From NCBI GenBank assembly GCA_030149525.1, contig JASBRJ010000332.1, positions 1 through 42,770 of the forward strand: DNA of 42,770 nucleotides, in the 5' to 3' direction. The stretch is from a bacterium (GTDB taxonomy: Bacteria > Vulcanimicrobiota > Xenobia > Xenobiales > JADMJV01). The notes beneath the pieces are model-generated. The model was not told where the DNA came from and made no database searches. It saw only the letters and a list, made by a program, of their open reading frames with translations. Both the position numbers and the translations under genes were made by a program. Positions 3,860-42,770 of this stretch are shown here, one piece after another (position 1 is the first letter of the stretch; each line of letters starts with the position of its first letter).

Positions 3860-6800
3860 TTGAGATTTAACCAAACAACTGACCTGACATCCCCGCATTC
3901 TCTGAAGAGGTCTATCCTCGGAGTCTTCGTTGCTTTCATCTGTGCGCTTTTCGCAGCCGGATGCTCAAGCGGCGGTTCCGGTGGTAACGATTTCGTAGCT
4001 TCTCCCGGCGGCGGCGCCGGGAATGGTGGCGCACCTGCGGGCAACGGTTCAGTAACATTTAATTTTGTGAGAGCACAGACAGCGGTCCAGGTTCCGACCA
4101 ACACTGCCAATCTGCGCTTCGAGTTTTTCAGTGGACTACAGGGTGGCGGCGCACTCGTATTCAAAGATACGAGAGCTTTTGCCAACAGCATTACCATCGA
4201 CAACGTCCCGTCATCGGCCCGATCTTCTGTGGTCACCGCCCTGACGACGGAGGGTTTCCCTGTACGCACGTTTACCGTCGACCTGACTGTGTCCGTCGGT
4301 GGAACGACCACCGTCGATGCGACTGCGGGAACCAGTGCCCCGGTAACAGTAACAGGTATCACCTCAAGTCCTTCGCAGGTTGCGCTAGGCCTTGGAGATA
4401 CCACCCAACTGCTTATCAGTGCTCAGTTCTCCAACGGCGACGTCGTGGCGCTCTCGGGTGCCTTGTCGAGTCAGGTGACTTTCACGTCCAACAACACCAG
4501 TGTGGTTTCTGTCAGTGCTAACGGCACTCTCACCGCGGGCGTGGCCGGAACGACAACCGTGACCGCATCTTTTATGGGGCAAACCGTCAACGTGACGGTT
4601 GCCGTCGGAAACGGAATCACTCCGCCTCCCACGGTTCAGAACCTCACCATTACAACGGTTGAGACTCAGCCGATCAGCTTGCCGCGCGGAACGGTTTCCC
4701 AACCTATCACCGTCACGGCTACTTTCAGCGATAACACGACCCGAAATCTGACTGCCACAAACGGCGTGAACTTCACGTTCACCGGCACGGGAGTCTCTGT
4801 TAACGCCAATAATCAGATCGCTGTTGAAGGCAATGCACCGCTCGGAAATCAGACGCTCACCGCGTCTTTCGGCGGATTGACGGCTGCCGTCCAGGTGACT
4901 GTTAACGACGCTACAGTCCAGCAGGGTAGTCTGACGGCAAGTCCAGCATCGGTTTCCTTACCCTTCGGTGGATTTGAGCAGCAGATTGCGATTTCCGCAA
5001 CCTTTACCAACGGTCAAACCCTGCCTCTCAATCCCGACGGCCAGGTCTCTTACCCGACCACGGGAACCAATGTAACGATTAACGACGTCACGGGTGTTCT
5101 CACCACGAACAGCAACGGTACAGCCGGAACCGAGACGATCACGATCTCCACTGTCGCCGACGCCAACATTAATCTGCCGGGTGGCATCACTGTTAACGTA
5201 CCTGTCACGGTAGGCAGCGTGACTGTGACCAGCCTCACCATCACTCCCAACGTGGTTCCTTTAGCCGGAGCGGTTTTCGCACCCGGTCAAACCCAGGAGT
5301 TTTCGGTTGTAGCCAACCTTTCCAACAACACCACGGTGAACGTCTCCGACTTTGCTTCGCTGCAACTTCAGGTGACCAGTGGTGGAAACTTCGTGGTAGC
5401 CAACGGCAAACAGATTGTTGCCATCGCTCCCACCCCTGCCAACACCCCGTCTGTGGTGTCTTTTAACATCCCCAACTCGGGTCTCCCGGCCCCTGCCACT
5501 GTGAACGTCACGGTGGTGGCCGAGGTGGTTGCCAACTTCTCGGATATCGAATACCGCTTCGGTGGTATCCGAATTCCGGCTAACAAGACGGTTAACTTGC
5601 CTCGTGGTTATGTCGGCGTCTTCGAAGTTTTCGCGACTTTCAATACGGGTGTGACCCGTCGTCTGAGAGCCGATGAGTATGAGATCCGTGGTGAGGCTGA
5701 GCTTAACGGCAACAACGGTGCTGCCATTCAGCTCTTCAGAGACGGCTACACGCCGGAAGCCATCAATGGTCAATTCATTGATGGGCAACCTGTGGATCTC
5801 AACATTGCGCCTCTTGGAACGGATGCTACTGCCTTCAATACGGCTGAGGCTCAAGTGGATGACATTTTCTTCCGTCCTCGAACGGTAGCAAGCGTCGGTG
5901 ACACGGTGGATGCTCGTGTGGTTACCGGTTCTACCACCAGTAACGGAAGCACCCGCGGTGTCGCGGCAACTCGGAGTACCTTCCGGGCCGTGGTGGCCGA
6001 CTGGCGTCGAGGTGAAGCCTACCAGGGTAACCTCAACTACACTGTTGGCGCTATGAACCCCAGCCTGTCCGCCAATGCAACTACGGGCGCCGATGGAAAT
6101 AGGGTTTCGCCCGGTTCCCAACGTGACTTCGACGTGGTTCTCAACAGAAGCGTGACCGGTTATACCGGTGCGGTAGACGGCTCGGGATTCCCCACCAACC
6201 CGTCCGACGATGGTTTGAGCCTCCCCGGAGTCTCGGTCACCGTCATCGACCCTAAAACAGTGACTTTCGTTTCCGCCGGCTTCCTGAACTACCCCACGGA
6301 CAATCAGGTTCCCGTGGGTGCCGTTCGGGAGTTTGAGGTACGAGTGAGCTTCTCGGCCGTGGTCGCAAGCGACTCCATTTCCGATAACGCCGACCTCCCT
6401 GCAGGTGGTCCTACGGTTCAAGCCATTCCGAACTGGAAGTTGGCTGAAGCTAACGTCACTATCGCTTCGCAGATCGGGCTGTCCGCAAACAGCTTCGTGG
6501 AGCACACACCCACCGAGATCGGGTTCATCGGAATCACTTCCGAGACACCCGTCGACGTGAACACCACCTTCGTCAGGGCGCAGCCTCTGCTCGGAGACAA
6601 TGTGCGTCCTCTGGCCACCGTCCCGCCTGCAGTCGACCCAGTTAGCATGGCCTACCAGGCGGCTACCTACGAAGAGATAACCCGGGTTTTCGGAACCAGC
6701 TTCGACTTAACTGGAGCTGAGTTCACCGGCTTGGTTCCCTCTCGTGACCCTGGTCCTGCTCCGAACAACCAGCAGACCAATGAAGCTCGCGCAGGCGGCG

Positions 6801-7300
6801 CGCCGAACGATGTTCAGACCCGTACGGTCGTTGATGTCCCCGGACAGAGCATCGATATCGTCGATCCCAACCTGTTCAGCATCGATCCTATCAACCCCGC
6901 CGGAACCGGAACACCTTTGGTGCTCAATGTTGGTGCCGGCGACGACTTCCGAACCGTCGTTCAGTACGAGGCCGGTCAGCCTGTGGTTGACCGCTCCCTC
7001 GACTATCCGCCGGTCGCTTTCTTCGGGACTCCCCCTGCCGGCTCCGCCAGAGGCGTTCAAGCCACGGGTGGTCTCAGGGTGAGCGGGATTAACGCAGCCG
7101 GTGGAGTGGCCACTCTGCCTACCGTCATCTCAAACGTGATCGGTAACCCTGCTGCGGAAATCGTGGTTGTCGCGGTGGACTCTGTGGGTGAAGTGATCTC
7201 GGCTAAAGGTGTGTTCGCGAATGCGACCGGCTTTATCGTCGACTCTAACGGACAAGTGGGTAACGCTTCGTCCTTCACCACCATCAACGTCAATCCGTAA
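3860..7300 (+). CDS. Large multi-domain Ig-like lipoprotein
   Basis: The 1146-aa product starts at TTG, supported by GGAGGGAG at 3846-3853. An extended N-terminus precedes the hydrophobic core and lipobox AAGC with Cys35, followed by a Ser/Gly-rich tether. Residues ~50-150 match the N-terminal domain of the preceding lipoprotein, so the two are paralogues. A series of Ig-like beta domains follows at about 155-248 (clear BIG2 pattern), 258-350, 355-450 and 455-550. A further stretch to the C-terminus has variant domains and no catalytic motif I recognise. The composition is Thr/Val/Asn/Gly-rich with few Cys, typical of surface or adhesin-like proteins. A terminator follows, so it is probably monocistronic. 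Binding partner unknown. Confidence 0.85.
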   Translation: MRFNQTTDLTSPHSLKRSILGVFVAFICALFAAGCSSGGSGGNDFVASPGGGAGNGGAPAGNGSVTFNFVRAQTAVQVPTNTANLRFEFFSGLQGGGALVFKDTRAFANSITIDNVPSSARSSVVTALTTEGFPVRTFTVDLTVSVGGTTTVDATAGTSAPVTVTGITSSPSQVALGLGDTTQLLISAQFSNGDVVALSGALSSQVTFTSNNTSVVSVSANGTLTAGVAGTTTVTASFMGQTVNVTVAVGNGITPPPTVQNLTITTVETQPISLPRGTVSQPITVTATFSDNTTRNLTATNGVNFTFTGTGVSVNANNQIAVEGNAPLGNQTLTASFGGLTAAVQVTVNDATVQQGSLTASPASVSLPFGGFEQQIAISATFTNGQTLPLNPDGQVSYPTTGTNVTINDVTGVLTTNSNGTAGTETITISTVADANINLPGGITVNVPVTVGSVTVTSLTITPNVVPLAGAVFAPGQTQEFSVVANLSNNTTVNVSDFASLQLQVTSGGNFVVANGKQIVAIAPTPANTPSVVSFNIPNSGLPAPATVNVTVVAEVVANFSDIEYRFGGIRIPANKTVNLPRGYVGVFEVFATFNTGVTRRLRADEYEIRGEAELNGNNGAAIQLFRDGYTPEAINGQFIDGQPVDLNIAPLGTDATAFNTAEAQVDDIFFRPRTVASVGDTVDARVVTGSTTSNGSTRGVAATRSTFRAVVADWRRGEAYQGNLNYTVGAMNPSLSANATTGADGNRVSPGSQRDFDVVLNRSVTGYTGAVDGSGFPTNPSDDGLSLPGVSVTVIDPKTVTFVSAGFLNYPTDNQVPVGAVREFEVRVSFSAVVASDSISDNADLPAGGPTVQAIPNWKLAEANVTIASQIGLSANSFVEHTPTEIGFIGITSETPVDVNTTFVRAQPLLGDNVRPLATVPPAVDPVSMAYQAATYEEITRVFGTSFDLTGAEFTGLVPSRDPGPAPNNQQTNEARAGGAPNDVQTRTVVDVPGQSIDIVDPNLFSIDPINPAGTGTPLVLNVGAGDDFRTVVQYEAGQPVVDRSLDYPPVAFFGTPPAGSARGVQATGGLRVSGINAAGGVATLPTVISNVIGNPAAEIVVVAVDSVGEVISAKGVFANATGFIVDSNGQVGNASSFTTINVNP

Positions 7301-9198: not shown

Positions 9199-9506
9199 AA
9201 CGCCTAATTCTCGCTCTAGCGACTTGCTTATCGTTCACGATTCTGGCCGGCTGCGCCGGGCCTAAAGAGCCGCCGCCGCGCAGCATCAAGGCGATCGACC
9301 AAACAGTGGTGGCCACTGTGCGTATGAATCTTAAGACCGATGCTGAACTCGCTTCTTCCACCATTCAGGTGAACGCCGAGAACGACTTACTTATCCTTCG
9401 CGGTTCGGTGCCCAGCGAGGCGGCCCGGAAAAAGGCAGAAGAGATTGCCCTCAAGACGCCTAAAGTGGAGAAAGTCGCCAATCACTTGGAAGTTGCTACC
9501 CAGTAG
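9195..9506 (+). CDS. BON-domain lipoprotein
   Basis: The 103-aa product overlaps the previous stop as ATGA. Lipobox LAGC with Cys20 follows a hydrophobic segment. Residues ~35-100 form one BON domain: 'D..v...vr..L..d.el..s.I.V...n..l.L.G.v.s...r..A..iA....gV..V.n.l.v'. BON domains (as in OsmY, BamE-like and secretin-associated proteins) are thought to bind phospholipid or the envelope. It is the third gene of the operon and likely periplasmic, attached to a membrane. Its 3' end is only four bases from the convergent pseudopilin gene, with no visible terminator between. Confidence 0.92.
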   Translation: MKRLILALATCLSFTILAGCAGPKEPPPRSIKAIDQTVVATVRMNLKTDAELASSTIQVNAENDLLILRGSVPSEAARKKAEEIALKTPKVEKVANHLEVATQ

Positions 9507-9510
9507 CGCC

Positions 9511-10119
9511 TCAACGGCGGTCGAGCACAACGTTTCCGCTTGCAGACAGTTCCAAGGTTCTTCGGTAATCGTTGTAATCCAATGAGATCGCTGCCGTTGC
9601 GGCCGTTGTTACCAGCGCCAAGTCTCCGTTGACGTCGACGGGCAGGGTTGCCAGGAGCTGAGAGGGCCCCGTCTCAGGTTTGGCTAGAAACTCTACATAG
9701 ACCCCCGTGAGGCTCTGGTCCGCATCAATGTCCACCTGCCCCAGTTGAAAAAAGCTGACTCTGCTGTTGACAGTTGTCGACAGACTTTTCTCGGTGACGA
9801 GAATCGGCGTCGTGGACGGCCGAATTCGCTTTCGGACTCTCACCACAACAGCTGATCCGGGCGGAGAATTTGGAGCGCCGGCACTGGCTAGTCCTGAGTC
9901 TATGGAGGCGGGGAGAGGTGTTCCCGCTGTCTTGGCTTCTTGAATCCCTCGCTCTATCAAAGCCTTGCAGATTTCAATACCGCGATTAACCCCTGTTCTT
10001 CCTCGATAACGGGAGATGAGCGGGACGGACGCAGCCACGATGAGAGCAAGGATCAGCAGCGAAATGCTAATTTCGGCCACCGTGAACCCTGATACCTGAA
10101 GCTGTTTGTGTCGTCTCAT
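9511..10119 (-). CDS. Pseudopilin-like protein (GspG/H type N-terminus)
   Basis: The 202-aa product carries a class III (prepilin) signal: short basic leader, then G^FTVAEISISLLILALIVAA, with cleavage expected after Gly11 and the conserved Glu at +5. The rest is a soluble domain with Val/Thr/Ser-rich strands and no Cys pair. This is the architecture of type IV pilin-like or type II secretion pseudopilins; the exact class is unclear. It requires a prepilin peptidase encoded elsewhere. The ribosome binding site is weak (AAGGG four bases before ATG). It lies near two further pseudopilin-like genes, separated from them by a plus-strand membrane-protein gene. Confidence 0.85.
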   Translation of the reverse strand: MRRHKQLQVSGFTVAEISISLLILALIVAASVPLISRYRGRTGVNRGIEICKALIERGIQEAKTAGTPLPASIDSGLASAGAPNSPPGSAVVVRVRKRIRPSTTPILVTEKSLSTTVNSRVSFFQLGQVDIDADQSLTGVYVEFLAKPETGPSQLLATLPVDVNGDLALVTTAATAAISLDYNDYRRTLELSASGNVVLDRR

Positions 10120-13657: not shown

Positions 13658-16651
13658 CTAGAAGCCTTCTAGCCTAGAGATATCGAGCAAGCCGTCGGGT
13701 AAGGCTGCTATGGCTGCCAGTAAATCGAGTCTCGCTTTGCGTAAACTGTCGTCTTCGGCCATCACTAAGACGTTATCAAAGAAGTTGTCGATGGCGGGTT
13801 GCAGAGTGGCGAGAGCCTGAGCTAGTTCGTCTACCGTGCTGAAGGGCGCTTTGCCCGCCACTTCCTGGTAGACCTTGTGAAGCTCTTTGGTCTGGGGCTC
13901 CACAAACTTCCCGGCGTCAGCTTCGCCCGGTTTCTCGTGCTTTTTGATGATGCGACAGCACCGAGCATAAGCGTTGAGTAGCGTGTCCCAGTTATCCTGA
14001 GCCACCAGTTTGGTGGTCTCTTCGATCACCTGGGCGATTCGAGCGGGGTTGGGAGCGCCACCCATCACGGCGGCTTCCACGATGTCGTGACGGTAGCCCT
14101 TATCCTTGAAAAGAACCATCATCCGGTCATTAACGAAGCCTAAAAGATCGTCCTTATGGGCTTGACTCACCTCCACCGGCATGTGGCCGGCCGCCATCTC
14201 AAACAGCTTATCAAGCGAGACCGACAGGTCGCCGGAGATGAGAAGGTCGACCAGAGTCAGAGCGTGACGTCGCAAGCCAAAAGGATCGGCCGAACCGGTT
14301 GGCTTCTTGCCCACAGCGAAGAGGCCGATCAGGCTATCCAGTCGGTCGGCAAGACCGAGGACCTTGCCCGGGAGGCTTTCCGGTTGAGTGCCACCGGCGG
14401 CCTTGGGTAAATATTGTTCCCGAACAGCCTGAGCCACAGCTTTGTCTTCGCCGCTGTCGAGAGCGTAGACTTCGCCGAGGACCCCCTGGAGCGAAGTCAT
14501 TTCGACAACCATGGCGGTCACCAGGTCGTTCTTAGCCAGGCCGGCCGCTCTTTTGACCGTGTCGGCTTCGGAGCTTGAAAGATTGAGCAGGTCGGCTAGT
14601 TGAACGACCAATTTCTCTAACCGGACCTGCTTGTCCAGCATAGAGCCCAACTCCGTCTGGAAGGTTAGGCCGGAGAGGTCTTGTCGGAAATCGGCGAGCT
14701 TCTTCTCGCGGTCGGCTTTGACAAAGTAAGTGGCGTCGGCGTAGCGGGCTCGGAGCACGTCTTCATTACCCTGAACAACCAGAGATCGATCTTTGTTCTC
14801 TCCGTTGCAAACCACCACGAAGTTGGGCAGCAGGCCGGAACCGTCGGCTTTTTCCACAGGGAAATAGCGTTGATGCTTCTTCATGACGGTGACCAGAACG
14901 GAACTGGGTAGAGCCAGATGTTCTTCGGCAAATTTTCCGACGATGGCCACGGGTGACTCCACCAGGTCGGTGACCTCGTCCAGCAGGGCTTCCTGGCCTT
15001 CCGGAAGCCGCCCACCGATGTTTTGCGCGGCCGACTCAACAAGGGCCAGAACTTTGGCCCTACGAGCGGGTCGACTCGCCACGATACGATTTGAGGTGAG
15101 GGTCTCCTGATATTTTTCCGCGCTCTCTAAAGTGATCGCGGGAGAGCCTTCAGGTCGACTCCCTCGTGTGGTCCGTCCGCTGTTCAGGCCGGCGTACTCG
15201 AAGTCCACCACTGCACCACCGTGGAGGGCGACCAACCAGCGAACTGGCCGGCTAAAAGCAGCTTTACTCTCATTCCAGCGCATGGTTCTTCCAAATTTCA
15301 GAGACGAGACCAGCGCTCCAAGCGACTCCGAAAGGACTTCGGAGGCTCTTTGCCCCTCCTCTTTCTTGGTGGCCGCCACATACTCGCGCTTGCCGTCGGA
15401 CTCCACTCTGAGATCCTTGGGATCGATGCCTTGAGCCTTACAGAATCCAAGGCCCGCCTTGGTGGGGTTCCCTTCGGCATCCAGGGCCACCTGGGGTGGC
15501 GGACCTTTGAGCTCAACCTCTCGGTCAGGTTGTTTGGGAGCCAGGTCGTTGACCACTAAGGCCAGGCGGCGAGGAGTTGCGAAGACTTCGATCTCTCCGT
15601 GTTCCAATCGCCCCTTTTGAAGAACCTCTAGGAGACCGTTCTTGAGTTGTTCAGCGGCAGGTTCGACCTCGTGAGAGGGGAGCTCTTCTGTGCCTACCTC
15701 CAGCAGGAAAGGAGCGGCGCCGTCGGGTGCGGTGCCTTTGTTCTCCTCGGCTTGTGAGGTTTCTGCTCGCTTGATACGGTCCATAAGCGGGTAGCCAAGC
15801 TTCTCTCGCTGCGCCAGATAGTTCTCGGCGGTGGCTCGAGCCATGTCGCGCATGTTGGCGAAATATCCGGCTCTTTCCGTCACCCCGATGGCACCCCGGG
15901 CGTCCAGCACATTGAACGTGTGGGAACACTTAAGAACGTAGTCGTGGGCAGGAACCACAAGGCCCGCTTCCAGGCACGACTTGGCTTCTTTCTCGTAAAG
16001 CTGATAGAGATCTTTGAGACGGTCCACGTCGGCTTTGTTGAAATCGTATTCACAGTGATCGATCTCCGGTTGCAGAAGCACATCACCGTAGCTGTAGACG
16101 CCGTTCCAGTCCAGATCCCAGACGGTGCGGACGCCCTGGATGAACATGGCGATTCTTTCTAAGCCGTAGGTGATCTCGATAGCGGGCGTTTCCAGCACCT
16201 GACCGGCAGACTGTTGGAAGTAAGTGAACTGGGTGATTTCCAGTCCGTCAAGCCACACTTCCCAACCCAGACCCCAGGCACCGAGCGCGGGTGACTCCCA
16301 GTTGTCTTCCACGAACCGGATGTCGTGGGCGTCTACGTCGATGCCGCAGGCTTTGAGAGATTCGAGATAAATCTCTTGAGGATTGCCGGGATCCGGTTTC
16401 AGAATGACCTGGAACTGAGTGTGCATTTGCATCCGATTGGGGTTCTCACCGAAACGACCGTCGTCGGGTCGGTAGGATGGTTCCGGATAAGCCACATTCC
16501 AAGGTTCAGGACCAACCACTTGCAGGACAGTGGCAGGGTTCATGGTCCCCGCACCAACCTTCTCGGAGTAGGGTTGCCATAAGATGCACCCCTGTTCCGA
16601 CCAGAACTGTTGCAGTCTGACGATCAATTGTTGGAAGTTTGGGACGGACAT
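13658..16651 (-). CDS. glyS: Glycyl-tRNA synthetase, fused alpha and beta chains
   Basis: The 997-aa product joins both subunits of the bacterial (alpha-beta)2 enzyme, which charges tRNA-Gly. Residues 1 to ~290 are the alpha chain: FWSEQGC near the start, '[12 protein letters not shown]', '[17 protein letters not shown]' and '[18 protein letters not shown]'. A short linker (~290-312) leads to the beta chain beginning '[12 protein letters not shown]' and ending with the C-terminal anticodon-binding helices. Separate glyQ and glyS genes are the norm; fused forms are known, for example in chlamydiae. GAGGTG (minus strand, plus coordinates 16656-16661) supports the start. A terminator-like hairpin sits just upstream of it, suggesting attenuation. 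Convergent with dusA. Confidence 0.97.
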
Positions 16652-35676: not shown

Positions 35677-35705
35677 TTGACCCTGTTCGGGATTTTGCAA
35701 ATAAT
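35677..35705 (+). promoter_or_regulatory. Strong sigma70-type promoter for the giant TPR protein
   Basis: TTGACC (35677-35682) and AATAAT (35700-35705) are exactly 17 bp apart. Transcription would start near 35712, leaving a ~95-base leader before ATG 35807. The leader has no clear ribosome binding site near that ATG; GGGGG lies about 19 bases upstream. Confidence 0.6.
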
Positions 35706-35806: not shown

Positions 35807-38800
35807 ATGCAAACTGAGTTTATTACGAAAAGAGAGCTGAAGGTCCCGGAACGGGCACCAAAAGCTCTAAATAGTCTCCTGGTTAAGACTCAGGAGGGCA
35901 TTGTGGCCGGTGGTGGACTTGATACGGTTCGCTGGCTGCATGACAGCTTGGCCTTTCTGACCGAGTTCTTTGCCTCTTTCGCCGTAGGTGCGCTTCAAAC
36001 TGTCGGCCCTTACTCCAATGCCATCAAAAAGCTTATGGAGCAGCCGCCGTCTCTCGACCGTTCAGAGCGACTGTTGGCCCAAGCTTTCACAGACTGGAAA
36101 GCGCATCCCCATCACCCCGCTTATGAGAGTCTGAGAGAAACCTTTTTCCTCACCAGTCGTCTGCAAACGTCGCGCTTTGCGCCTCGTCGACATGCTCGTT
36201 GGTTAGGTGTGGAAGGGCGCGCCGTGGCCGGAGTCGAGAGACTCCCGCGCTGGAGTCGAAGAATCGACCTGGTGGTGAGCGGTGGCGATGAACAGGCAGC
36301 TCATGGGTTTATCGAAACTTACACTCCGCTTCTCTGGACTTGGACGGACTCGCTTCAGGGGTTCTTTAGCGGATGGGCAGTGACGGTTCAGACCGACGTT
36401 AAGGACGGCCGCATAGGTCTGGCCGGCTCAGCTTCGAGAAACGATGTCCGCTTGGAATTAGTCCCTGTCGATGTCTTGAGCGGACTGAAAAGTAGTTTTG
36501 GCTCCGACGGCAACGGTGGGATCCTCTTGGAGGGTTTTCGGGAACTGGGCGGCCCGGGACAGACGTCCCAGCCCGTTCCGGAGGCCGCTCCTGTTTCGCC
36601 CTCCGAGCAGCCTGCAGGCGCCGTGTCTGAGGAGCGACCTCCTCTCGACTCGGACCCGCATTCAGACGCCCCCGAGCCCCAGGCTCAGATTTCATCGGTC
36701 GGTGAAGAGGCTCCACTCTTTGCTCAGGAACCGCAATCCGTTGAGGCACCTTTGTTTGCTCCGGCACCTGGAGCCGTGAGAACGGATGACCCGCTGACGC
36801 GTGGAACCAAAGCGCTCCTGGTAGACCAATTTCGTCAGCCCACGCCGGAACAGGCCGAAGAGGCTCCCGCATCCGGAGCGGAGGCCGCCCCGGCTGAGCC
36901 TGCACAGCCGGATCATGAGTCGTCTCTTTTTAATCTGTCGGCACCTACTGCGGAAGAGAGTGGGGAAGCTCCGACCACTAGTACGGTCGGCGAGTCCGTC
37001 AGTGTGGAACCCGCTCCAGACCTCGGGTCGCCCTCGGAGCCCGTTGCCGAGATTCCCGCGCCTGATTTTGGAGATGAGCCGGTTACTCAAGTTCCTGCAC
37101 CTGATTTTGGAGCTGGGCCGGTGGCAGAGATTCCTGCTCCTGACTTTGGCACCGACTCGATTGTGCCGGTTCCGGGCCCTGATATGGGTGCACCAATAGC
37201 GCCGCCTACTGAAACTTCGGCCCCCAATTTTGGAGCTGAGTCTGTAGATGATGTTCCCGCTCCTGATTTTGGCGCCGAGCCGGTTGCTGAGACTCCGGCT
37301 CCTGATTTTAGCGCGCCCACTGAACCCGGCGCGGAGGCTCCTACCGCCGACTTTGGTGCCTCCCTCGAACCGGTTGCCGAAGTTTCTGCTCCGGATTTTG
37401 GTGCGGTCTCCGAGCCTGTAGCTGAGGTTCCGGCTCCCAACTTCGGAGCAGAGCCGGTGACTGAAGTTCCAGCCCCCGATTTCGGTGTGGAGCCCGTAGA
37501 CCAGGTTCCAGCTCCCGACTTCGGTGAGCCTGCCGAGCCGGTTGCTGAAGTTCCCGCTCCTGACTTTGGTGCGGAGCCCGTAGATGAAGTTCCCGCTCCC
37601 GACTTCGGTGCGCCTTCCGAGCCTGTGGCTGAAGTTCCCGCCCCCGAGGAGTCCGTAGACGAGGTTCCAGCTCCCGACTTTGGTGCGCCAGCCGAGCCGG
37701 TGGCTGAAGTTCCGGCCCCCGATTTCGGTGCGGAGCCCGTAGACGAGGTTCCAGCTCCCGATTTCGGTGAGCCTGCCGAGCCGGTGGCTGAAGTTCCAGC
37801 TCCTGACTTCGGTGCTGAGCCCGTAGACGAGGTTCCCGCTCCCGACTTCGGTGCGCCTGCCGAGCCTGTGGCTGAAGTTCCAGCCCCCGATTTCAGCGCG
37901 CCTGCCGAGCCAGTCGCTAAAGTTCCAGCTCCTGACTTTGGTGCGGAGCCCGCCGACGAGGTTCCAACTCCCGACTTCGGTGCGCCCGCTGAGCCGGTTG
38001 CCGAGGCTCCTACTCCGGATTTTTCTTCACCTGCCGAGCCTGTGGCGGAAGTTCCTGCCCTCGATTTTAGCGCGCCTGCCGAGCCTGTGGCTGAAGTCCC
38101 GGCTCCTGACTTTGGTGCGGAGTCCGCAGACGAGGTTCCCGCTCCCAACTTCGGTGCGCCTGTGGCGGAAGTTCCTGCCCCCGATTTTAGCGCGCCTGCC
38201 GAGCCTGTGGCTGAGACTCCAGCCCCTGATTTCAGTGCCGCCGCAGAAACCGCTGCTGGGGACTTCGGTGCGCCTGCTGAGCCTGTGGCGGAAGTTCCTG
38301 CCCCCGATTTTAGCGCGCCTGCCGAGCCTATGGCTGGGATTTCTGGCCCTGATTTCAACTCGCCCGCCGAACCCGTTGGTGAGGTCCCGGCTCCTGATTT
38401 CACCGCGCCCGCCGAGCCCGTTGCCGAGGTCCCAGCCCCTGAGCTCGGCTTATCAAGTGACAGCGTTGAGGAAATCCCTACGCCCGATCTCGGTTCGCCT
38501 GAAGACGATGCCGAGCTTCTTGTAAGTGACGATTCCGCTGAAGGATTGCCTTACGCGATCGACGCTCCCCAGACTGTGGAGGTCCCCGCTGTTGATGCGC
38601 CGTCCAGCGTTTCGGAAGAGTCTGTTCCCGCTGTGCCCGAACCGACTGTGGAGGTCTCTCTTCCCTCACTAGGTCCGGAGAATGTCGCGCCCGCTCTGCC
38701 CCCGGTCGAGCCTGAAGCCACAGTAGAAGTTCCTCTGTCGGTGCCTGTGAGCACGGGCGACGATATCTTCGCTCTAAATGAGGACCAGGAAGATATCTTC

Positions 38801-41800
38801 GCTCAAGATCCTGACAGCGCCTCAAAGCCGCTCTTTCCCTCGGATGCAGAAACTGTCCCCAGTTCTGTGTCGGCTGAGCCGGAGCCTCAGTTCACTTCGG
38901 TCGAAATCGAAGTGCCGGCGGACAGCATTCGTGACATGGGTGCGGCGGCTGAAGAAATTCTCGAAGACAACTACGATTTCAGCCCTGAAGACGGTCCTGC
39001 AAAACCCAAGTGGAAAGGATGGTCCGTCGACGAGCGAGAGGCCGTTCAAGAGGTTTGCGAGTTCGTTGTTGGGCAATCTGAAAGTGTTATCCCTGAGGCT
39101 TATGGCCAACCCGTTAGGGCGGCCATCGAGTCCACTCACCAAAAGATTCAAGTTCTTCTAGAGCGATGCTGCGGAAAGACTCGACTCGCTCAAGACCTGT
39201 CGCTTCAGGAGTCCTCGAAAGATAGTCATATCGCCCTTCTTGCGAGCTGGGAGAAGCGCAAGACAGACGGCCGCCCCGGTACGGAACTCCTTCGCTTCTA
39301 CTATGAGTTGCGCCGTAGTAAGCGATCCCAGCGCGGCCAGTTGGCTTTGCCGGAACCGCAAGCAGTCACGGCGCTTGCGACGTCTGCAGACAAAGAGGGC
39401 TTCGGGCAGGCCTTCCAACGGCTGCTTGGGCAAATTTCGTCTCTCAACAAGAAGCCTTTGTTATTCATACTTGACGAGCCACCCGCACTCGTTCGAGAGG
39501 CGTTGGCTCTCAATCTGAGTTCCGGAGTCCGCTTTCTGAGTATCTTAGAGCCCCAGAACTCTCTTCCGGCACTCGGTGAGATCGTGGACCTTCGGCCCAA
39601 CTGGAAAGCGGCTGCGGAAGAACTCTTCGGCGAAACCGCGAGCAATTACAAAGATAGGCCCGACGCTAATCTTCTTCGACTGGCCATGGCTAACGAACTG
39701 GTGAACTCCGACTACGTCGTTCCTCAGAGCCTCGCAGAAGTCGAAGAAATGGTGGTGAAGAGCGAGATTGTCGATACGGAGCTACTCGCTGTGCTCAGTC
39801 TTGAGGAACGGGCTATTTCTCTCGATGATCTCGATCAATGGTTCCTCGATGCCGAAGCTGTTACCGAGACGATTACAGCGTTCCCGTCGATTTTTGAGCT
39901 GGCCAAGACGCGTTTGTCCCCTGTGTTGGGACTGGCCCACCCCTCCGTCACCCAACGAGTGATAGAGCAGTACGCCTCTGAGCGCTCCAGTGTGGCTAAA
40001 AAGCTTCTCGGATGGGTCGTTCTCCAATTGGAAAGAACCAATGCGGAGAAGTACGGTGGACTGCAAGTCCGCGAGATCGTCTTCAGGAACTTTCTAAGGC
40101 TTTATCGATTCGCCAAGCTCTCGAACGACCCAGATATTCTAGAATGGGTCCTCAGAAACAAAGACCTGCAACGCCGGCGCGTCGTTCTGACCAGCCATCT
40201 GGAGAAGCCTGGAAGCCGCTATGAGCTTTCCGAGATGCTTGAGACCCTGGTGGAATTGCTCACCGAGTTGGTGAACTCAGGAAAGTCGGACGACCTCCGC
40301 GACGAGCTCGCCTGGGCTCACTCAAATCTTGCTCTTAATCAGTTGAAGCTCGGTCTCTATCCGCAGGCTGCCGAGCATGTAGAAATAGCGTTCAAGCTTT
40401 TTGAAACTCTGGTTAATAAAGAGAAGCAGTATGAGTTCCGTTCCGCCCTTTCGACATCTCAATATCGGGCCTCGCGGATATACGATGCCATGGGAGTGTC
40501 GGATAAGGCGGTGGAGTTTGCGGATGCGGCCGTGCAAGGCTTTGTCGACCTTGTGGAGGATCGCGGCAAAACGGAACTCACTCCTCGCTTAGGGCTCGCT
40601 CTTGCTCATCGTGGGCGCCTCTTTAGTCAGGCCGACAAAGATGCCGCTGCCAAAACCGATCTGCAGAGGGCGGCCACTCTCCTCGAGAACAACGACCAGG
40701 TCGAGCCCGGAGAATCGTTCAGAACCTTGGTGGACATTCAGCTTGAGCTCGTCACCATCTTCATGGACGAGAACGATCTTGAGAGTGCTATCAAGGAGGC
40801 GGGTAAAGCTGTAAAGACAGCGACCGTTGCACTCGAGGAGCATGGAATGGAAGAGTTTCAGCCCATTCTTGCTACCTGCCACGGTCTGCGTGCCAAGTGC
40901 TACCAGAAACAGAACGAGCCGGAGAGAGCCCAGAGAGATATTGTTAAGAGCATCAGTTTGCGCAATCTCTCCGTCGACGAAGGTCGTTTGGAACAGCGCT
41001 ATTTTCTGGCCAAAGATCTTCAGTTGCGGGCTCAGATCGACCAACTTCGTGGTGCCGGCGAAGACGCCACTCGTGATCTCGGTCAAGCTATTGAACTACT
41101 GCAAAAACTGGCCGAAGAGGGCCGTGCCGATGCTAACTCTCAGCTTCTGGTCTGTCTGCTGGACCGAGCCAACATTTACCTTGGCGCCGGCAAAGCTCAG
41201 GAAGGCGTGGCCGATCTTCAACGTTCGCTGACCCTGGCAGAGCAAGACAACTCCGCTGAAGCTGGAGTGCATCGAGCAGCAATCCAGGACAGCTTGCTCC
41301 AAGCTTATGTGAAAAACGAAAGCTTCGACGAGGCGCTGGCGATTTCCCAAAGCCTGCTGGCCGACTACCATGCCGCTCAGGCCTGGGAGAAGTATTCCAG
41401 GGTTCAGTTGATCCGAGGTTCCGCTTTCGAGAAAAAGGGAGACCAAAAGCAGGCTCACGAGAGTTACACTCAAGCTGCCAACCTGCTGAGTCAGCTTCTG
41501 GCTCAAGGACAGACCGAGCCTTTGCTTGTCAGCGTGGCCGAGGCTTACCTCGGTCTCGGAGGGCTTGAGATGGCCATGGGACGCTCGGTAAACGCTCAGA
41601 AGCAGATCAAGCAAGCCATCGACGTCTACAGTCACCTGTTCCAGCAACGTGGTCGACCGGATGTTCTGCCTCTTATGTTGAAGAGTTACTCTCTCATGGC
41701 AGCAGCCAATCTTGCGCAAGATCGTGTTGGGGAAGCCAAGCAGGCGCTGAAATCCGGTTTTGATATCCTCAAGTACATGGATTCCAGTCAAGGCAAGAAT

Positions 41801-42770
41801 GGGATCCCTACCTCTCAGGGTCTTGAAAACTTGAAGGGGCAGTTGCACCGACTTCGGGCTCAAGCTTCCATCGCCGACGGCGATCCGGGCGCCGCTCTCA
41901 ACGATACGGAAGAGGCCACCAGGAACTTCCTGGCGACTCGAGGGCGTCCTGACGGGCTTCATTGGAAAGACGAATTCAGCCGCAACCAGATACTTAGGTC
42001 AAAAGTCTTCTTTGCGCTCAAGGATTTCAACCAGGCAGAGAACTCGATCCAGGAATCCATCGCTCATTTTGACGAGAAGATTCGCGAAGGCCGCTATGAG
42101 TACTTCGGCGATTTGATCACGGCTATGGGCGTGAAGGCTGACAACTCAGCCAAAGCCGGCAAGATCGACCAGGTGCTGGAAGAGTATCAAAAGATGCTGG
42201 CTACCACCACAACGGCCGCCAAGGCGGGCGCTTCCATCGACGGCGAGTCCGAAATGGCCAAGATCCTGGAAAAACGCGCTCGTGTCTACCGCGATCAGGG
42301 ACTTCTCAACGAAGCCTACGCCGATTATGAATCGGTCATCGGGCTGTATCGCAACCTGGTTACCAACCAAGGGCGAGGAGACCTGGCGCTTGAGTTGGTC
42401 AGGATTCACCTCGAGAGAGGTGAGATGACCACCAAGGCTGGTCACGGCCAGCACGCCATCAACGACTTTAGCGAGTCCATCAACGTGGCTAAGGCTCTGG
42501 TGGGTCAGGGACAAGCTAGTGCCGTGCCGGAGTTGGCCAGGGCTCTCCACAGGCGTGCCGACGTGCTGAAGGGCCTCGGACGGGCCCAGGATGCTCTGGC
42601 CGATCTGCAGGGCTGCATAGGATTTCGTTCTCAGTTAGCTCAACAGAGTCAAGACCCTGAACTCCTCGGAAGTCTGGGGAAAGCCTTTCTGGCTCAGGGA
42701 ACGATTCTCATGCAAGCAGGTCATGTTCCTCAGGCGGCCCAGAGTTTGGACCAGGCAAACGTTATTTTCA
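35807..42770 (+). CDS. Giant protein: PAPDFG-repeat region, STAND-like ATPase region and TPR array (partial at 3' end)
   Basis: One frame stays open from ATG 35807 to the window end (2321 codons, no stop). An in-frame TAA at 35762 bounds it upstream. Residues 1-~235 are a domain I do not recognise. A Pro/Glu/Ala-rich stretch leads to ~36 units of VPAPDFG-type repeats (401-898), then acidic sequence. Near residues 1121-1125 CCGKT lies in a Walker A-like position but lacks the upstream glycines; 'LLFILDE' (1218-1224) is Walker B-like. Residues ~1325-1390 look like a winged helix. From ~1470 TPR-like helix pairs run to the edge (e.g. 'AWAHSNLALNQLKLGLYPQAAEHVEIA'). This suggests a STAND-type signalling or scaffold protein. 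No signal peptide was found. Confidence 0.8.
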   Translation, partial: MQTEFITKRELKVPERAPKALNSLLVKTQEGIVAGGGLDTVRWLHDSLAFLTEFFASFAVGALQTVGPYSNAIKKLMEQPPSLDRSERLLAQAFTDWKAHPHHPAYESLRETFFLTSRLQTSRFAPRRHARWLGVEGRAVAGVERLPRWSRRIDLVVSGGDEQAAHGFIETYTPLLWTWTDSLQGFFSGWAVTVQTDVKDGRIGLAGSASRNDVRLELVPVDVLSGLKSSFGSDGNGGILLEGFRELGGPGQTSQPVPEAAPVSPSEQPAGAVSEERPPLDSDPHSDAPEPQAQISSVGEEAPLFAQEPQSVEAPLFAPAPGAVRTDDPLTRGTKALLVDQFRQPTPEQAEEAPASGAEAAPAEPAQPDHESSLFNLSAPTAEESGEAPTTSTVGESVSVEPAPDLGSPSEPVAEIPAPDFGDEPVTQVPAPDFGAGPVAEIPAPDFGTDSIVPVPGPDMGAPIAPPTETSAPNFGAESVDDVPAPDFGAEPVAETPAPDFSAPTEPGAEAPTADFGASLEPVAEVSAPDFGAVSEPVAEVPAPNFGAEPVTEVPAPDFGVEPVDQVPAPDFGEPAEPVAEVPAPDFGAEPVDEVPAPDFGAPSEPVAEVPAPEESVDEVPAPDFGAPAEPVAEVPAPDFGAEPVDEVPAPDFGEPAEPVAEVPAPDFGAEPVDEVPAPDFGAPAEPVAEVPAPDFSAPAEPVAKVPAPDFGAEPADEVPTPDFGAPAEPVAEAPTPDFSSPAEPVAEVPALDFSAPAEPVAEVPAPDFGAESADEVPAPNFGAPVAEVPAPDFSAPAEPVAETPAPDFSAAAETAAGDFGAPAEPVAEVPAPDFSAPAEPMAGISGPDFNSPAEPVGEVPAPDFTAPAEPVAEVPAPELGLSSDSVEEIPTPDLGSPEDDAELLVSDDSAEGLPYAIDAPQTVEVPAVDAPSSVSEESVPAVPEPTVEVSLPSLGPENVAPALPPVEPEATVEVPLSVPVSTGDDIFALNEDQEDIFAQDPDSASKPLFPSDAETVPSSVSAEPEPQFTSVEIEVPADSIRDMGAAAEEILEDNYDFSPEDGPAKPKWKGWSVDEREAVQEVCEFVVGQSESVIPEAYGQPVRAAIESTHQKIQVLLERCCGKTRLAQDLSLQESSKDSHIALLASWEKRKTDGRPGTELLRFYYELRRSKRSQRGQLALPEPQAVTALATSADKEGFGQAFQRLLGQISSLNKKPLLFILDEPPALVREALALNLSSGVRFLSILEPQNSLPALGEIVDLRPNWKAAAEELFGETASNYKDRPDANLLRLAMANELVNSDYVVPQSLAEVEEMVVKSEIVDTELLAVLSLEERAISLDDLDQWFLDAEAVTETITAFPSIFELAKTRLSPVLGLAHPSVTQRVIEQYASERSSVAKKLLGWVVLQLERTNAEKYGGLQVREIVFRNFLRLYRFAKLSNDPDILEWVLRNKDLQRRRVVLTSHLEKPGSRYELSEMLETLVELLTELVNSGKSDDLRDELAWAHSNLALNQLKLGLYPQAAEHVEIAFKLFETLVNKEKQYEFRSALSTSQYRASRIYDAMGVSDKAVEFADAAVQGFVDLVEDRGKTELTPRLGLALAHRGRLFSQADKDAAAKTDLQRAATLLENNDQVEPGESFRTLVDIQLELVTIFMDENDLESAIKEAGKAVKTATVALEEHGMEEFQPILATCHGLRAKCYQKQNEPERAQRDIVKSISLRNLSVDEGRLEQRYFLAKDLQLRAQIDQLRGAGEDATRDLGQAIELLQKLAEEGRADANSQLLVCLLDRANIYLGAGKAQEGVADLQRSLTLAEQDNSAEAGVHRAAIQDSLLQAYVKNESFDEALAISQSLLADYHAAQAWEKYSRVQLIRGSAFEKKGDQKQAHESYTQAANLLSQLLAQGQTEPLLVSVAEAYLGLGGLEMAMGRSVNAQKQIKQAIDVYSHLFQQRGRPDVLPLMLKSYSLMAAANLAQDRVGEAKQALKSGFDILKYMDSSQGKNGIPTSQGLENLKGQLHRLRAQASIADGDPGAALNDTEEATRNFLATRGRPDGLHWKDEFSRNQILRSKVFFALKDFNQAENSIQESIAHFDEKIREGRYEYFGDLITAMGVKADNSAKAGKIDQVLEEYQKMLATTTTAAKAGASIDGESEMAKILEKRARVYRDQGLLNEAYADYESVIGLYRNLVTNQGRGDLALELVRIHLERGEMTTKAGHGQHAINDFSESINVAKALVGQGQASAVPELARALHRRADVLKGLGRAQDALADLQGCIGFRSQLAQQSQDPELLGSLGKAFLAQGTILMQAGHVPQAAQSLDQANVIF
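37007..38500 (+). repeat. Array of ~36 imperfect 39/45-bp in-frame repeats
   Basis: Each unit encodes VPAPDFGAEPVDE (13 aa, 39 bp) or VPAPDFGAPAEPVAE (15 aa, 45 bp) with substitutions such as PDFS, PNFG and TPAP. In the middle the two forms alternate, giving an 84-bp higher-order period. One unit near 37648 is cut short. All unit lengths are multiples of three, so gain or loss keeps the frame. Confidence 0.95.

Follow-up and report, generated by a model that had tools for sequence, protein, structure and literature searches.

A giant STAND-derived protein from the Eremiobacterota with an apparently eroded nucleotide switch and an N-terminal module shared across its genome

Introduction

Inactive STAND proteins have been described in bacteria as iSTAND and iSTAND2, which belong to MoxR-vWA ternary systems, and it has been proposed for other bacteria that inactive STANDs act as sensors, with repeated adaptor modules as the couplers (PMC7159879, PMC8195603). 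Bacterial NACHT proteins, for their part, do act in defence (PMC12169576). NACHT-clade STAND NTPases that carry TPRs at the C-terminus share with the protein described here the order of their parts, in which an N-terminal module is followed by an NTPase, a winged helix and superstructure repeats. Here we describe a giant gene of this architecture from a window of 42,770 nucleotides, by which we mean the whole stretch of DNA analysed, together with its orthologs, its paralogs and the other proteins of its genome that carry the same N-terminal module.

Results

The window is the entire contig C299 of an 8.27 Mb assembly in 398 contigs, and the truncated 3' end of the giant gene is therefore an assembly break. 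A single open frame of at least 2321 codons had been noted from the letters of the window alone, and it is indeed present, starting at an ATG and open to the window end (Table 1). Extension past this end, which the sequence-only reading had proposed, recovered the C-terminal end of the protein: when the C-terminus of an ortholog was used to search the same genome, a single site was returned, at the extreme end of contig C273 (L055:14184-14822, minus strand), which holds the last 212 codons, ends in a stop and can be aligned to the conserved C-terminal part of the orthologs. The gap between the two contigs is about 19 residues, as estimated from the ortholog alignment, and the full protein therefore comes to about 2550 aa. 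Codon-position GC in this frame remains coding-like across the NTPase region. Around the P-loop, neither of the remaining frames contains a P-loop or a substitute motif, and a frameshift was accordingly rejected as the source of the odd P-loop. An antisense ORF of 438 aa opposite the repeats (window positions 37087-38403, minus strand) was dismissed as a gene, as it is solely the complement of the PAPDFG repeats and almost certainly spurious. The "strong promoter" of the earlier reading comes down to one sigma-70-like match at 10 of 12 consensus positions; two such matches were found where 0.4 would be expected, which is not evidence of strength.

Table 1. Features of the giant gene and its upstream region in window coordinates
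Feature	Coordinates	Strand	Basis or remarks
Sigma-70-like promoter match TTGACC-17-AATAAT	35677..35705	+	consensus match only, 10/12
Giant gene	35807..42769	+	2321 codons within window, ATG start, frame open at window end
N-terminal ~180-aa module, residues 15-200	35849..36406	+	invariant RRHxRWLG in giant orthologs; AF2 pLDDT 77, pTM 0.78
Acidic Pro/Ala/Val/Glu-rich linker	36485..38992	+	836 residues, net charge -167
PAPDFG-type repeat array	37010..38494	+	motif present 34 times, at intervals of mostly 13 or 15 residues
Degenerate STAND (NACHT-like) NTPase core, residues 1063-1245	38993..39541	+	profile score and alignments
Remnant P-loop CCGKT, residues 1121-1125	39167..39181	+	alignments
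Retained Walker B LLFILDE, residues 1218-1224	39458..39478	+	alignments, profile
Post-core helical region, residues 1246-1320	39542..39766	+	~40 gap columns vs orthologs
Winged-helix-like segment with LAHPSV (orthologs IAHESLRDFL)	39767..40006	+	alignments, profile
Conserved helical linker ahead of TPR array	40007..40276	+	39% identity to G001 ortholog
TPR-like array, period 46-47 residues	40277..42769	+	Pfam; runs on beyond window

The NTPase core was compared with a profile built from seven relatives, from which the window copy had been left out. It scores 22.3 bits, the best of 500 shuffles reaching 4.3, and since the relatives keep NACHT-type motifs the earlier proposal of a degenerate STAND-like ATPase holds. 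The profile alignment pairs CCGKT with the relatives' GVGKS and the window ILDE with their Walker B, and CCGKT and LLFILDE lie 97 residues apart, in agreement with the spacing of about 100 noted earlier. When submitted to the Walker A test GxxxxGK[ST], the window CCGKT fails, whereas the assembled orthologs and most paralogs pass; the loop is two residues shorter than the orthologous GESGVGKS. The first glycine is lost; the GK-T core remains. The sensor-1 arginine is also missing, and about 40 residues have been deleted after the NTPase core (some 40 gap columns). LLFILDE passes the Walker B test hhhhD[D/E/G]. The test for DGLDE, the NACHT-type acidic signature behind Walker B, is failed by the window LDEPPAL, passed by the paralogs' LIIDGLDE and FVLALDGLDE, and passed in part by the orthologs' LDEIDRR.

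The winged-helix-like segment and the linker behind it score 103 bits against the profile of the relatives, which establishes the homology of the segment noted earlier; that it is a winged helix we infer from its position and an H-S-hR motif. Structure prediction, also proposed as a check, gave a model of low confidence. The AF2 model of the NTPase and winged-helix region (4 sequences) has a pLDDT of 56 and a beta-alpha-beta order compatible with a P-loop fold, but does not resolve the winged helix, and Foldseek with this low-confidence model returned no match at E<=0.001. A search of PDB sequences with the NTPase profile gave weak AAA-type matches only (RFC and mS29, with E of at least 0.02). 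Given both its descent from STAND NTPases and the failed P-loop test, we therefore file the protein as STAND-derived rather than as an active STAND; the window copy has probably lost NTP hydrolysis.

Orthologs are present in the related Eremiobacterota genomes G001-G006, and the gene was found in all seven genomes searched of two related families. Complete orthologs come from G001 (2840 aa), G004 (2926 aa) and G006 (2428 aa), those of G002, G003 and G005 being split at contig ends. All have the same order of N-terminal domain, acidic Pro/Ala/Val linker, NACHT-like NTPase, winged-helix-like segment, TPR-like array and conserved C-terminus. In every ortholog with an assembled, alignable NTPase, both Walker motifs are intact: Walker A reads GESGVGKS in G001 and GDEGVGKS in G006, and Walker B reads LLYLDE and LMLDGLDE, respectively. 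Paralogs in the window's own genome likewise keep their P-loops (GSGKT with LIIDGLDE on contig C349 and with LLILDGFSD on C185), and one own-genome paralog passes the Pfam cut-off for NPHP3_N and narrowly misses those for NACHT and AAA_16. Of the giant orthologs, only that of the window lineage thus looks to have an inactivated ATPase.

Regional identities point to the same part of the protein. Between the window copy and the G001 ortholog, identity is 22% in the NTPase and 15% in the post-core region (40 gap columns), compared with 39% in the pre-TPR linker and 37% at the C-terminus, whereas the intact pair G001 and G006 shows the opposite trend (NTPase 32%, C-terminus 27%). We therefore conclude that the NTPase has decayed preferentially. 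In a tree of the winged helix plus linker, the window copy falls within the giant clade (support 0.92), with the intact G006 protein as outgroup (0.93). When the decayed NTPase columns are included, the window copy groups instead with the C185 paralog (0.81), a placement that we attribute to its long branch. Its nesting within an intact clade makes the P-loop loss a derived one, which most simply would have arisen in the lineage of the window, a genus sampled by one genome. In a different protein of G006 (C228, L044:4255-9630), Walker A (GARGNLTAS) and Walker B (VVLVLHRFPDG) have both been lost, and the wider family has therefore seen at least two inactivations.

The PAPDFG array of about 500 residues had been recognised correctly: it spans residues 402-896, where a relaxed pattern finds 34 copies, 15 of them exact PAPDFG, and TRF reports arrays of 39, 45 and 84 nt. 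The linker that contains it is 836 residues long in the window protein and 1097, 1183 and 678 in those of G001, G004 and G006. The four linkers differ in sequence but have a common composition (Pro 19-27%, Ala 15-19%, net negative), and short acidic-hydrophobic motifs recur in three of the proteins, PAPDFG in that of the window and SLDDLLAEE-type in those of G001 and G004. What is conserved in the linker is composition and spacing, not sequence, and it is probably disordered. The long TPR array of the earlier reading is recognised by three Pfam families, all above curated cut-offs (TPR_2 E=1.7e-9, TPR_8 6e-7, TPR_1 1.6e-6), and has a repeat period of 46-47 residues, compared with the canonical 34.

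An iterated profile search with the N-terminal module found 27 copies in the 14 proteins examined. The giants and most other STANDs have a single copy, and proteins of the C5/C19 type have two. Three to four copies occur in own-genome proteins on contigs C202, C84 and C354, all three of which end in hydrophobic, TM-like segments. The module is thus common to the window protein, the C349 STAND and the C202, C84 and C354 proteins, which is a sharing pattern in line with the principle of effector-associated domains (EADs), and its carriers include STAND paralogs with intact P-loops. In the own-genome proteins with 3-4 tandem modules at L039:1603-4638, L040:5355-8417 and L047:6062-11128, the modules precede a conserved 'VLTNAGGG'-type segment and a hydrophobic tail, the L039 protein being without a Pfam match. 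The domain occurs in 7 of the 149 genomes searched of the phylum, or 7 of 18 of the class, throughout in the same two families. Its AF2 model is mostly helical with C-terminal strands. Foldseek with this model found no PDB relative, PDB sequences searched by profile gave no credible match, and Pfam finds no family in the C202 protein. On sequence evidence, this module of about 180 residues is an undescribed domain family outside Pfam.

The neighbours of the gene in the window are housekeeping genes (FabG-like SDR, RadA, PIN-TRAM, IspD, RluD-like, YifB, GlyQS, PPDK and Dus), and a defence island was rejected on this ground. PADLOC finds no defence family in the window protein or in its G001 ortholog, and a weak Avs1b match (E=0.003) in a paralog. 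The anti-phage role suggested by the sequence-only reading is accordingly not borne out. In G004-G006, what we take from its sequence to be lepA follows the gene or the C-terminal part of it, and in G001 and G004 a glycosyltransferase gene lies near the giant gene. Neither the scanned window ORFs nor the main ORFs of C273 gave a MoxR or vWA match. C273 also carries a Prim-Pol/PriCT primase and a serine recombinase (L055:616-3453, 9237-9914), some kilobases downstream of where the giant gene ends and possibly as parts of an integrated element. Elsewhere in the window, the glycyl-tRNA synthetase alpha and beta subunits are fused into one chain of 997 aa with a C-terminal DALR domain (13658-16651, minus strand), and a protein of 1146 aa (3860-7300, plus strand) has a Big_2 Ig-like domain and is otherwise without a Pfam match.

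Discussion

On balance, we lean towards regarding the window gene as the local ortholog of a giant NACHT-like STAND, in which the switch has eroded and whose product most likely serves, independently of nucleotide, as a scaffold or sensor docking through its N-terminal module. In this model, a giant NACHT-like STAND signalling NTPase would have been inherited by descent in two related Eremiobacterota families, and its nucleotide switch would have eroded in the window lineage. The TPR-like array and the conserved C-terminus may bind a ligand or partner. The acidic and presumably disordered tether of some 836 residues, with its evenly spaced PxPDF(G/S) motifs, would extend the reach of the protein and possibly allow multivalent binding; the N-terminal module may dock other carriers, namely the STAND paralogs with intact P-loops and the proteins whose C-terminal tails are hydrophobic. 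That module copies dock with one another is a proposal, and a role as scaffold is plausible. A broader proposal, which we consider possible but doubtful, is that the module is a new lineage-specific coupling domain through which giant STANDs, the pseudo-NTPase of the window and membrane-anchored proteins with 3-4 copies assemble like-with-like, the pseudo-NTPase being a constitutive scaffold or a competitor of its intact paralogs.

The shortened CCGKT loop could, with an intact Walker B, still bind nucleotide and act as a switch that is slow or limited to binding. In favour of this, GK-T and LDE have been kept and Walker B is unaltered, but the first glycine is gone, the loop is two residues shorter, the sensor arginine and about 40 post-core residues are lost, and the canonical loop is kept in every assembled ortholog, which together make this reading unlikely. 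An error of assembly or sequencing in a normal STAND is hardly credible: this is a single draft assembly in 398 contigs, yet the degeneration spans about 200 residues, from P-loop through sensor to post-core deletion, and the motif is not recovered in any alternative frame.

Two further explanations concern the gene as a whole. It could be an anti-phage, NLR-like protein of the bNACHT/Avs kind, with the TPRs as sensor of a phage product and the N-terminal module as trigger of an effector. The STAND/NACHT architecture, the weak Avs1b match of the paralog (E=0.003) and the defence activity of bacterial NACHT proteins (PMC12169576) speak for such a role. We consider it quite unlikely, as the gene is present in 7/7 searched genomes of two families, beside housekeeping genes and with no defence island, no effector domain is recognisable, PADLOC is silent on both the window protein and the G001 ortholog, and the switch is lost here. 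Decay of the entire gene, following a loss of its function, is very unlikely. The eroded NTPase and the low identity to orthologs (15-39% by region) would be expected of such a gene; more than 2500 codons remaining open over two contigs, with coding-like codon-position composition, would not, nor would a C-terminus and pre-TPR linker that are better conserved than the NTPase.

A nucleotide-independent scaffold or sensor thus remains our preferred reading, and the protein is a clear example of a STAND that has lost its switch in a single lineage, with orthologs in related genera keeping theirs. As these orthologs retain the switch, a switch-less function can be tested by comparison. Furthermore, in a phylum that is poorly known and largely uncultured, an undescribed domain family connects membrane-anchored proteins to STAND giants, and this pattern of a shared module recalls how adaptors work in bacterial conflict systems and in animal inflammasomes.

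Compared with NACHT-clade STANDs, the intact paralogs here conform, showing a P-loop and an hhhhDGLDE Walker B and scoring at NACHT, NPHP3_N or AAA_16, whereas the window copy has no functional-looking P-loop and adds an acidic repeat linker of 836 residues and a non-Pfam N-terminal domain. The anti-phage bNACHT/Avs proteins are similar in combining a NACHT/STAND core with C-terminal sensor repeats, but the giant gene has no effector domain, lies in a housekeeping context and occurs in every genome of its families, and the window copy lacks the switch. With iSTAND and iSTAND2 it shares the fusion of an inactive STAND domain to an adaptor-type domain at the N-terminus; there is no MoxR or vWA among the neighbours examined, and, in contrast to iSTANDs, which are inactive as a whole family, the loss in the window copy is recent and confined to one lineage. 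The module differs from EADs (PMC7159879) in its length of about 180 aa, in being non-Pfam and restricted to two Eremiobacterota families, and in having neither adjacent-gene pairing nor a known effector. It resembles them in looking non-enzymatic, in being carried by a STAND core protein as well as by further proteins encoded in that genome, and in having lineage-specific paralogs.
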